Origin: Clostridia bacterium
GTDB lineage: Bacteria > Bacillota > Clostridia > Oscillospirales > CAG-272
DNA length: 64,000 nucleotides
NCBI GenBank assembly: GCA_017483195.1
Contig: JAFULR010000008.1
Location: forward strand, 62,001 to 126,000
Direction of reading: 5' to 3'
In this document: positions 47,763 through 50,339 of the stretch, one piece after another
How the letters are laid out: the number at the start of each line of letters is the position of its first letter
Position numbering within the stretch: position 1 is the first letter of the stretch
Position numbers and translations under genes: made by a program
The notes under the pieces: generated by a model
What the model saw: the letters and a program-made list of their open reading frames with translations, nothing else
Databases searched by the model: none
Told to the model about the DNA's origin: nothing

Positions 47763-50339
47763 ATGAAGAAGCTCACCATAGGCATCCTTGCACACGTTGA
47801 TGCGGGAAAGACCACTCTCTCAGAGGCGATGCTCTATACCTGCGGTAAGATACGCTCCCTCGGGCGCGTTGATCACGGCAACACGTATCTTGACACAAAC
47901 GCAGTTGAGCGCGAGCGCGGTATTACAATCTTCTCAAAGCAGGCGCGTTTTTCAACGAATGCGTGCGATTTTATTCTCCTTGATACACCGGGGCACGTGG
48001 ATTTTTCCGCAGAGGCGGAAAGAACACTCTCCCTTCTCGATTACGCGATACTCGTTATAAGCGGCGCGGACGGGGTTCAGAATCACACGAGAACTCTTTG
48101 GAATTTGCTTGAATTTTATGGAGTACCGACCTTTATTTTCGTCAACAAAAGCGATATTGCTATAAAGACAAAGGACGAGCAGGAGGCGGAGATAACCTCG
48201 GTGCTTGGTGACGCGTGCGTGGGATTTTTTGATACTCAGAGCAAATCCGAGCTTGACGAGAGACTTGCAATGGTTAACGAGGAGCTTCTTGAGGCTCACG
48301 TTAACGGAGAGGAAATTGATGATGCTCAAATTGCTTCCCTAATAAGTGAAAGGCGACTCTTCCCCATCACATTCGGCTCCGCTCTTCGTTTACAGGGTGT
48401 TGATTTCTTGCTTGAATTACTTGACAGATACACATTAAGTCCTGTTTATGAAAGCACGTCCTTTGGCGCAAAAGTATATAAAATAGCAAGGGACGGCAAC
48501 TTAAGACTCACTTATATGAAGGTGACGGGAGGCACACTCACCGCGCGCGACGAGATATCCTACCTGACCTCTGAGGGCAAAAGAGTCGTTGAAAAGGTCA
48601 GCCAGCTGAGGCTTTATTCCGGTGATAAATTTGAGCAAGTTGACTCCGTTTTCGCGGGTGAGATATGCGCAGCCATCGGTCTTTCCTCCACCTATGCGGG
48701 ACAGGGACTTGGAGCCGAGAGCGACACAAACTCTCCCGTCCTTGAGCCTGTTCTATCATACAGAATAATACTTCCAAAGGGCTGTGATCCAAATCTCTAC
48801 TTTCCTAAGCTCAAGGAGCTTGAGGAGGAGGAGCCCTCACTCCATCTTTATTGGAACGAGGAGCTTCGTCAGATCGAAGCGCGCCTTATGGGTGAAATAC
48901 AGATAGACCTAATTAAGCGCCTTGCACTTGAAAGATTTGGAATTGAATGCTCGTTTGACATTGGAAAGATACTTTATAAAGAAAAAATTTCTTCCAAGGC
49001 AATAGGCGTCGGACATTTTGAGCCACTTCGCCACTATGCGGAGGTTCAGCTCCTGCTTGAGCCTCAGCCGAAGGGTACGGGGCTTATATTCGATGTTCGT
49101 TTGCCCGAAAATATGCTCGCTACAAATTGGCAGAGGCTCATACTTTCACATTTATATGAAAAAAGCCACCGCGGAATTCTCACGGGAGCTATTCTTACCG
49201 ATACAAAGATCACACTTATTGCCGGCAAAGCCCATCTTAAGCACACCGAGGGCGGCGATTTCCGCCAGGCAACTCTGCGAGCCGTTCGTCACGGACTTAT
49301 GAAGGGCGGATGCGTTCTTCTTGAGCCGTTTTATAAATTCAGGCTTGAAATTCCCTCCTCCATGGTGGGCAGAGCTATGAACGATCTTCAAATGAGGTAT
49401 GCCGAATTCAGTATAGAAGAAAACACCCAAAGCTTTACAACCATCTGCGGCAGAGCGCCCGTTGCTACTCTGCACGATTACGTTGCAGAGGTCATCTCAT
49501 ATACAAGGGGTGAAGGAAAGCTCTCGTGTGTGAGCGACGGCTATGATGAATGTCATAACCCCGAAGAGATTATTGAAAAGTCCGGATATGATCCCGAAAG
49601 CGACCTGAGAAATCCTCCCCACTCCGTATTCTGCGCCAATGGCTCGGGATATGTTGTAAATTGGCGCGACGTCGATTCTATGAAGCACATTGACGTTGAT
49701 CTCTCCGCAAATGACACGGTAAGTGCCGTTATTCCGAGAGCATCGTCACTCGCTAAAAAATATTCCCTCTCCGACGAGGAGCTTGAAGCAATAATGCTTC
49801 GTGAGTTCGGTCCAATCCGCCGCAAAAAATACAGCGAGCCGAAGATTATCTCCGCGGGCAAGGCAAAGCAAAATAAAAAGCCCCCACTTAAGCAGGAGAG
49901 CCTGGTAATAGTTGACGGCTACAATCTTATCTATGCGTGGGATACATTAAAGGAAATTGCGGACTTCTCTTTGGAAAAGGCGAGAGAAACACTTATGGAC
50001 ATTTTGTCAAATTACGTTGCATATACCAAGGAAAGGCTTGTTCTCGTGTTTGATGCATACCTTGTAAAAGAAGGTGTGGGCTCTGATTTTGAGCATGACG
50101 GTTATCGCGTGGTATATACGAAGGAAAATCAGACTGCAGACGCCTTTATTGAAAGGATGATGCACGAGCTTGGACCAAACTATAAAATTCGCGTCGTCAC
50201 GGGTGACCGTCTTGTTCAATTTGCCGCGGTTCACTCGGGAATATCACGAATGACCGTTAAGGAGTTTACCGACGAGCTTATAACCGTTGGCAACGAAATT
50301 ACGGACTTCGTAAAAAAGTTTGCCGAAAATCAAGAATAA
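47763..50339 (+). CDS. TetM-like ribosomal translation GTPase fused to a Rae1/YacP-type NYN endoribonuclease domain
   Basis: An 858-residue protein. Residues 1 to about 630 follow the EF-G/TetM layout: G1 AHVDAGKTT (10-18), switch I ERERGIT (49-55), G3 DTPGH (74-78), NKSD (128-131), then domains II-V. The domain IV tip that displaces tetracycline in TetM is replaced by KAHLKHTEGGDFR near residue 490. After a linker (about 620-712) come residues 713-858, a NYN/PIN-like domain close to B. subtilis Rae1. It contains IVDGYNL, LVFDAY, YTKENQTAD and VVTGDR, giving Asp near 718, 764, 793 and 815. Rae1 cuts mRNA in the ribosomal A site, the same site where TetM-type factors bind. AAGGAG is 7 bases before ATG 47763; ATG 47760 is the alternative. 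Confidence 0.88.
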   Translation: MKKLTIGILAHVDAGKTTLSEAMLYTCGKIRSLGRVDHGNTYLDTNAVERERGITIFSKQARFSTNACDFILLDTPGHVDFSAEAERTLSLLDYAILVISGADGVQNHTRTLWNLLEFYGVPTFIFVNKSDIAIKTKDEQEAEITSVLGDACVGFFDTQSKSELDERLAMVNEELLEAHVNGEEIDDAQIASLISERRLFPITFGSALRLQGVDFLLELLDRYTLSPVYESTSFGAKVYKIARDGNLRLTYMKVTGGTLTARDEISYLTSEGKRVVEKVSQLRLYSGDKFEQVDSVFAGEICAAIGLSSTYAGQGLGAESDTNSPVLEPVLSYRIILPKGCDPNLYFPKLKELEEEEPSLHLYWNEELRQIEARLMGEIQIDLIKRLALERFGIECSFDIGKILYKEKISSKAIGVGHFEPLRHYAEVQLLLEPQPKGTGLIFDVRLPENMLATNWQRLILSHLYEKSHRGILTGAILTDTKITLIAGKAHLKHTEGGDFRQATLRAVRHGLMKGGCVLLEPFYKFRLEIPSSMVGRAMNDLQMRYAEFSIEENTQSFTTICGRAPVATLHDYVAEVISYTRGEGKLSCVSDGYDECHNPEEIIEKSGYDPESDLRNPPHSVFCANGSGYVVNWRDVDSMKHIDVDLSANDTVSAVIPRASSLAKKYSLSDEELEAIMLREFGPIRRKKYSEPKIISAGKAKQNKKPPLKQESLVIVDGYNLIYAWDTLKEIADFSLEKARETLMDILSNYVAYTKERLVLVFDAYLVKEGVGSDFEHDGYRVVYTKENQTADAFIERMMHELGPNYKIRVVTGDRLVQFAAVHSGISRMTVKEFTDELITVGNEITDFVKKFAENQE

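Follow-up and report, generated by a model that had tools for sequence, protein, structure and literature searches.

A Tet/EF-G-type GTPase fused to a Rae1-type nuclease domain in Clostridia: a candidate factor for mRNA cleavage on the ribosome

Rae1 (YacP) is described in passages of three publications as an A-site endoribonuclease that was proposed to enter stalled ribosomes (PMC10100781, PMC8266666, PMC6613710). In the tetracycline-resistance protein TetM, Pro-509 of the tip loop sits in the tetracycline site and contacts C1054, as stated in a passage of a review (PMC8161019). Relatives of both proteins are joined in one gene of a Clostridia bacterium (assembly GCA_017483195.1, contig JAFULR010000008.1). 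A single uninterrupted open reading frame (ORF) at positions 47763-50339 of the + strand encodes 858 amino acids (aa), comprising an EF-G/Tet-type GTPase, a linker and a Rae1/YacP nuclease domain. All positions refer to the window, the whole stretch of 64,000 nucleotides that was analysed.

This architecture is not new: According to passages in Atkinson 2015 (PMC4342817), ten Clostridiales species have Tet proteins that acquired a YacP-like NYN domain, and RNase-based resistance was suggested. The window protein, a Tet-like translational GTPase with a YacP-like NYN domain, is a fusion of this type. An earlier reading of the stretch from its sequence alone (the sequence-only reading) had supposed that similar architectures exist in Clostridia; the ten species and the recurrence of the fused ORF in many genomes confirm this. 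It also knew of no functional study. None was recognised by us in full-text literature searches, whose coverage omits most subscription papers; the architecture itself, however, had been in print since 2015. New here, as judged from sequence comparisons, are the position of the GTPase as a sister clade of the true Tet resistance proteins without their drug-site Pro, a test for one origin of the fusion, the loss of a tail, a recurrent linker helix and the usual status of the fusion as the only Rae1 of its genome.

Nuclease and GTPase halves of the fusion

Residues 713-858 (49899-50336, + strand) constitute the nuclease domain. Pfam NYN_YacP matches residues 715-855 with 2.5e-39 and 135.4 bits vs. 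a curated cut-off of 24.6. In a PDB sequence search, Rae1 (5mq8, 5mq9) was the only relative up to E = 1 (E 2.5e-22). An AlphaFold2 model of this half, based on 29 aligned sequences, yielded a predicted local distance difference test (pLDDT) score of 91. When this model was used in Foldseek, Rae1 chains occupied ranks 1-3 (best E 1.9e-11, template modelling (TM) score 0.81 by query), and the next entry followed at E 0.014. By alignment, D718 (49914-49916), D764 (50052-50054), D793 (50139-50141) and D815 (50205-50207), all on the + strand, correspond to D7, D53, D81 and D104 of B. subtilis Rae1. The sequence-only reading had proposed a GTPase of the EF-G/TetM type and a Rae1/YacP NYN domain with four acidic residues in place within one protein; Pfam domains, structural match and alignment agree with it on each of these points. 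Among 69 fused nuclease domains, D764, D793, D815, N721 and Q819 are kept in all and D718 in 68. The equivalents of all six residues are present in 44 of 44 standalone Rae1-type copies.

The GTPase half, likewise on the + strand, starts with a G domain (residues 4-224, 47772-48434; Pfam GTP_EFTU, 4e-48). Domain II (residues 245-313, 48495-48701) is backed by the match of the whole protein to the EF-G fold; its two Pfam models stay below threshold (EF-G_D2 23.6 bits vs. a cut-off of 27, the second model 21.6 vs. 30.3). It is followed by domain IV (residues 403-515, 48969-49307; EFG_IV, 1.3e-11) and domain V (residues 518-599, 49314-49559; EFG_C, 1.1e-17). The tip loop of domain IV reads KHTEGGD (residues 493-499, 49239-49259), where Tet proteins have PVSTPAD or similar. 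Alignment and predicted structure delimit a small C-terminal module (residues 600-645, 49560-49697), in which Y609, S621, F623, G627 and W634 are present in 62 of 62 fused copies. Unfused relatives of the GTPase end in a similar module.

All G-domain residues inspected (D13, R52, I54, T55, D74, G77, H78 and K129) are identical in the 62 fused copies. H78 is presumably the catalytic His, by analogy with EF-G. This means, every copy carries the G-domain motifs and the His of a Tet/EF-G-type translational GTPase, and the conservation in nuclease and G domain suggests that both halves are under selection. In a Foldseek search with the whole protein, 49 among the 50 matches listed were entries of the EF-G/EF-2 type or relatives, and TetM was the 50th. 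The source genome encodes a true EF-G (1141 bits) and a second EF-G-like factor (577 bits). Since the true EF-G is the product of another gene, a role as EF-G replacement was rejected.

A GTPase clade beside the tetracycline-resistance proteins

One alternative is that the fusion is a tetracycline ribosomal protection protein, to which an RNase aiding resistance was added. This idea is found in Atkinson 2015 (PMC4342817), where RNase-based resistance is proposed in the passages concerned, and in public annotation: The fused Agathobacter rectalis copy and most of the listed, unfused Ligilactobacillus salivarius copies are labelled TetM/TetW/TetO/TetS family. Furthermore, tet_protect is the best NCBIfam model for the fusion. 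However, the score of 381.6 bits is far below the cut-off of 775, which the positive control, Lactococcus TetS, passes with 930.8 bits. The Agathobacter fusion (389.2 bits) and the L. salivarius protein (373.6 bits) miss the cut-off, too.

The tip loop points in the same direction. The position of the drug-site Pro aligns with K493 of the window protein. Pro was found in none of 63 fused and none of 12 unfused copies, yet it is present in TetS, TetO, TetQ, TetB(P) and an OtrA-like protein. Lys occupies the position in 59/63 fused and 12/12 unfused copies, and Val in the L. salivarius copy. Most copies share a loop HTxGGDF (H494 in 61/63, T495 in 63/63, G498 and D499 in 60/62). The loop of the window protein (HLKHTEGGDF) had led the sequence-only reading to conclude that drug resistance is unlikely to be the main job; a changed loop at this site was seen in all 75 clade members compared. 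In a GTPase tree of 35 rows with five known resistance types, fused and unfused copies form one clade of 28 rows (support 100/100). This clade is sister to TetS, TetO, TetQ, TetB(P) and the OtrA-like protein (100/99), and both are apart from the EF-G and EF-G-like proteins of the genome. Thus, the GTPase of the fusion is not nested among the known resistance proteins. A scan of nine neighbour proteins (window 42977-55673) gave no match to a resistance or mobility family, and a mobile resistance gene was rejected on these grounds. A function of the fused protein in tetracycline resistance appears unlikely from these comparisons, which agree with the conclusion of the sequence-only reading, and we assign the protection protein with an auxiliary RNase a low probability.

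The public labels on the Agathobacter rectalis and L. salivarius copies, which lack the drug-site Pro and score below the NCBIfam cut-off, could inflate resistance counts. The GTPase clade is common, with 164 of 391 genomes in a sample of the class (see below), and a fused copy is found in the human gut species Agathobacter rectalis. In the plasmid record of this species (L208:3310-6775), the fused gene has a BrnT-family toxin and a CopG-family antitoxin gene divergent just upstream. In L. salivarius pMP118 (L209:3529-5920), the unfused clade GTPase annotated as tetracycline resistance adjoins a plasmid-borne copy of the gene for ribosomal protein S14 (rpsN). Among the matches listed, 33 plasmid rows of L. 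salivarius (H3-H35) match the window GTPase at 46-47%. A literature search on tetracycline tolerance of L. salivarius, judged from the titles listed, yielded nothing to the point.

Linker, distribution and gene context

GTPase and nuclease are connected by a linker of about 67 residues (646-712, 49698-49898, + strand, delimited by predicted structure). In the full-length model (pLDDT 81, predicted TM score 0.61), GTPase and nuclease domains are folded, pLDDT falls below 50 at residues 648-669 and 680-711, and the placement of the nuclease relative to the GTPase is not confident. Measured from residue 643 to 713, linkers of 63 copies span 63-118 residues (median 73). Model and linker alignment reveal a recurrent short helix, SDEELEAIMLREFGPIRRKKY (residues 670-690, 49770-49832, + strand), which is acidic, then basic. 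A strict pattern for it matches 51 of 63 linkers, whereas 500 shuffles gave a mean of 1.1 and a maximum of 5. One of the 51 matches (L093) is located elsewhere in the linker; among the 12 misses, several are one letter off and others have no helix. The helix slightly resembles the C-terminal helix of TetS (NNRIDKVRHMFNKI), a likeness too short for a claim of homology.

Standalone Rae1 is a protein of ~170 aa, in most cases with a basic tail at its C-terminus (W164-R165-R166 in B. subtilis). A pattern for this tail is found in 35 of 44 standalone and in none of 69 fused copies. In the clade of the window protein the tail is cut off; in other fused copies it is present but altered. R166P, located in the tail of B. 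subtilis Rae1, was recovered in a set of efp mutant suppressors interpreted as loss of function, according to a passage of PMC6613710. The fusion may no longer need the docking tail of Rae1. The standalone set comprises 26 of the 30 best-scoring rows of a phylum sample, 8 hand-picked copies, 9 from named genomes and B. subtilis Rae1; it leans to high-scoring copies, so that the share of canonical tails may be too high.

Distribution was determined in samples of the family (98 genomes), the phylum (299) and the class (391) and in 10 named genomes, with counts uncorrected for kinship. The split into fused and unfused copies covers the whole family sample and every GTPase row of the phylum sample; for the class, it refers to the matches listed. 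In the family sample, NYN_YacP was found in 31 and the GTPase in 34 genomes. All 31 NYN_YacP domains share a frame with the GTPase, although five of the 31 frames do not reach full length. In the phylum sample, NYN_YacP is present in 155 and the GTPase in 20 genomes (at least 269 bits; next row 142.6). Eighteen of these GTPases are fused, and in both genomes with an unfused one, NYN_YacP is encoded by a gene of its own. A second NYN_YacP match was found in none of the 18 fused genomes of the phylum sample and none of the 31 of the family sample; in those genomes, the fusion is the only Rae1. The class sample contains 164 genomes with the GTPase and 249 with NYN_YacP, i.e. 155 with both, 9 with the GTPase alone, 94 with NYN_YacP alone and 133 with neither. 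Five of them have two NYN_YacP matches: two fused copies in G529, one fused and one standalone copy in G726, and a second frame that is not listed in G532, G597 and G638. The strict rule that the fusion excludes a standalone Rae1 was dropped due to G726. Usually, but not always, the fusion is the sole Rae1-type domain of its genome.

An unfused GTPase is accompanied by a separate NYN_YacP gene in 9 of 10 named genomes and, among the matches listed, in 12 of 15 class genomes with an unfused row of 645-729 aa (the sets overlap). For 11 of these 12, the separate NYN_YacP frame of 170-177 aa is listed, and for G781 it is not. Three genomes were kept out of the unfused count: G716 and G469, where NYN_YacP matches in the same cut frame, and G737, where the match lies in the frame that follows on that contig.

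The fusion occurs in families f1, f2, f5, f8, f11, f15, f59, f62 and f74. In a nuclease-domain tree of 69 fused and 43 standalone copies, two standalone copies from this class (L144, L145) are placed within the fused ones. A tree with the fused copies constrained to one clade had a better likelihood and was not rejected (approximately unbiased test, p-AU 0.784); a single origin of the fusion is therefore not rejected by these sequences. The GTPase tree of 63 fused and 12 unfused copies requires at minimum 2 changes between the two states, and 11 unfused copies form one clade, beside which the fused L048 is found upon midpoint rooting. When L. salivarius was added, the minimum rose to 3, with many forks open. 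Several loci were handled separately: L146, which is the cut-off end of the G331 fusion, was excluded from the standalone set. L106 (fused) and L054, L055 and L056 (unfused) were left out of the full-length sets by the P-loop trimming pattern. L058, L106 and L195-L198 are only in the nuclease-domain set, and L047 is cut before its nuclease part. Short-stretch loci (L001-L020, L159-L188) were excluded, and hence a few genomes (e.g. G031, G074) are absent.

Clusters of rlmB, mrnC, cysS and sigH were found at none of 58 fused loci vs. 18, 15, 16 and 16 of 19 standalone loci, respectively; in the record of B. subtilis, too, the genes are arranged as at the latter, cysS-mrnC-rlmB-rae1-sigH. The 58 fused loci have no conserved neighbourhood of their own: The commonest neighbour cluster, which by eye resembles ABC transporters, is present at 9 of them, so that the context gives no functional hint.

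In the window, the fused gene stands alone. A LiaF-like gene upstream is divergent, and the gene downstream is convergent behind a terminator-like hairpin (50344-50369, + strand) that separates the two. Translation may start at the ATG at 47763 or at the one at 47760 (859 aa), preceded by AGGAG resembling a ribosome binding site (47751-47755, + strand, read from the sequence); the stop codon ends at 50339. The sequence-only reading had reported a promoter with a 20-base leader. A box TTGAAA-N17-TATAAT (47705-47733, + strand; a consensus match only, 11/12) is indeed present and leaves a leader of about 20 bases, but promoter-like matches around the gene are overall not above shuffles (5 vs. a mean of 4.4). 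A known leader RNA was rejected, as an Rfam scan of the window at gathering scores gave 0 matches. An artefact of assembly or reading frame was rejected because the same fused ORF recurs across many genomes.

The nine scanned neighbours are LiaF-like, DUF4097, YgjP, glycoside hydrolase or Endonuclease_1 proteins or have nothing over cut-off. A YgjP-like metallopeptidase gene is found close to the fused gene in the window (45559-46122) and at L021, L022 and L040, and such a gene lies directly 3' of the unfused GTPase in L050 and L053. The Endonuclease_1-domain protein (42977-44932) has, by eye, a signal-like start and Cys-rich repeats, and a small lipoprotein-like gene follows it. At 14527-16869 (- strand), a 780-aa frame antisense to a 1058-aa ORF (13972-17148, + strand) is probably a shadow frame.

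Possible mode of action and comparison with known systems

As part of the explanation we favour, the fused protein is most likely a housekeeping-type ribosome factor and not a drug-resistance protein. In the most likely reading, to which we give an even chance whatever the order of events, its GTPase delivers the nuclease to ribosomes whose A site is blocked or empty, and the nuclease cuts the mRNA there. Ribosome binding is what we infer from the GTPase family and cleavage from Rae1. A domain IV of the Tet/EF-G type and a Rae1 domain would demand the same A-site space, and simultaneous occupancy is unlikely. As both halves could not fill the A site at once, a tethered hand-off would be needed, which the long and, as modelled, mostly disordered linker would render feasible. 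The sequence-only reading had inferred that the fusion delivers a nuclease to the A site; this may be so, but hardly with both halves there together. The GTPase would bind the ribosome, use its own tip loop to clear or probe the A site and depart upon GTP hydrolysis. Subsequently, the flexibly tethered nuclease would occupy the vacated A site and cut the mRNA, and the truncated mRNA would be passed to tmRNA/SmpB rescue. GTPase and linker helix would replace the basic C-terminal tail of most standalone Rae1 copies. The source genome has SmpB and, judged by length and partial match, frames that probably encode RF3, LepA and TypA, so that cut mRNA could be handled by trans-translation. We regard the more specific proposal of a one-protein machine for ribosome rescue or surveillance, whose GTPase inspects the A site and hands it over, guided by the linker helix, to its own tethered nuclease, as tentative and lean somewhat against it. 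If it is true, cleavage of the mRNA is gated by GTP hydrolysis, and Clostridium, Terrisporobacter and Ligilactobacillus possess in their unfused GTPase an unrecognised Rae1 partner or a stand-alone ribosome factor.

The favoured explanation is supported by the Rae1 identity of the nuclease half, the conserved residues of both halves, the absence of a second NYN_YacP match from the fused genomes of the family and phylum samples, the missing tail, the recurrent linker helix and the separate NYN_YacP gene that usually accompanies an unfused GTPase. Several observations weigh against it. One fused copy, L124, has Tyr at the position of D718. The nuclease domain would have to contend with domain IV for the A site. 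The patterns for linker and tail were written after the sequences had been seen, and the shuffles ignore kinship, as the co-occurrence counts ignore shared ancestry. Among the GTPase genomes, 3 of 34 in the family sample are unfused and without NYN_YacP match, and 9 of 164 in the class sample have no such match. Conversely, 94 of the 227 genomes that lack the GTPase in the class sample have one, and the exclusion of standalone Rae1 is not absolute, since G726 possesses both forms. The unfused L191 (G015, same family) is nested in the fused GTPase clade, ends after the C-terminal module and is found in a genome without NYN_YacP match; its nuclease half was likely lost from a fused ancestor. Unfused GTPases in genomes without NYN_YacP, including L191, indicate that the GTPase can do without the nuclease. 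L124 itself may be a nuclease-dead copy or a sequencing error.

Apart from tetracycline resistance, three other explanations were considered. The order might be reversed, with cleavage by the Rae1 domain as the first step, after which the GTPase moves or splits the cut ribosome like EF-G. The EF-G-like fold and the flexible linker would suit this order, and a GTPase that occurs without the nuclease has a function of its own. On the other hand, the genome already has EF-G and the second EF-G-like factor (1141 and 577 bits), and no observed feature separates this order from the hand-off in the first direction; we consider it unlikely. It is more doubtful that the nuclease cuts another RNA near the factor-binding site, i.e. 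A-site tRNA or rRNA. PIN-like proteins act on many RNAs, as a literature passage states, and a proposed role of the domain in rRNA/tRNA maturation is cited in Atkinson 2015 (PMC4342817, in the part concerned), but both sequence and fold point to Rae1, an mRNA endonuclease, as the closest relative, and the active-site residues checked are common to both.

The fusion could also be a mere convenience that yields two independently functioning domains from one gene. A single origin, which is not rejected, together with the probable loss of the nuclease at least once (L191) would allow that the fusion need not matter everywhere. However, it is found in all nine families named above and is accompanied by tail loss and linker helix, and we see but a very slight chance for this explanation. 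To our knowledge, there is no settled account of how Rae1 reaches the A site of particular ribosomes. With such a nuclease naturally joined to an A-site GTPase, the matter can be tested on a single purified protein and its point mutants.

Compared with known systems, the fusion has the fold, the four Asp, Asn10, Thr102 and Gln108 in common with Rae1/YacP of B. subtilis (PDB 5mq8, 5mq9). His55 of B. subtilis Rae1 is replaced by Tyr in 69/69 fused copies, as it is in 15/44 standalone copies. In contrast to B. subtilis Rae1, the nuclease domain is fused, has no basic C-terminal tail and lies outside the cysS-mrnC-rlmB-rae1-sigH neighbourhood. RelE-type mRNA interferases cut mRNA in the A site and belong to toxin-antitoxin systems; the fusion would act at the same place with an unrelated fold. 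With EF-G, the GTPase half shares the fold, but the true EF-G of the genome (1141 bits) is a separate gene. TetM, TetO, TetS, TetQ, TetB(P) and OtrA have all parts from G domain to domain V in common with the fusion, whose GTPase belongs to their sister clade. It differs from them by another tip loop without the drug-site Pro, an extra C-terminal module and an NCBIfam score far below the cut-off. The Tet-NYN proteins in the passages of Atkinson 2015 (PMC4342817) consist of the same two parts and come from the same bacterial group. That report predates the Rae1 work of 2017, proposes RNase-based resistance and, in these passages, does not separate the clade from the true Tet proteins.

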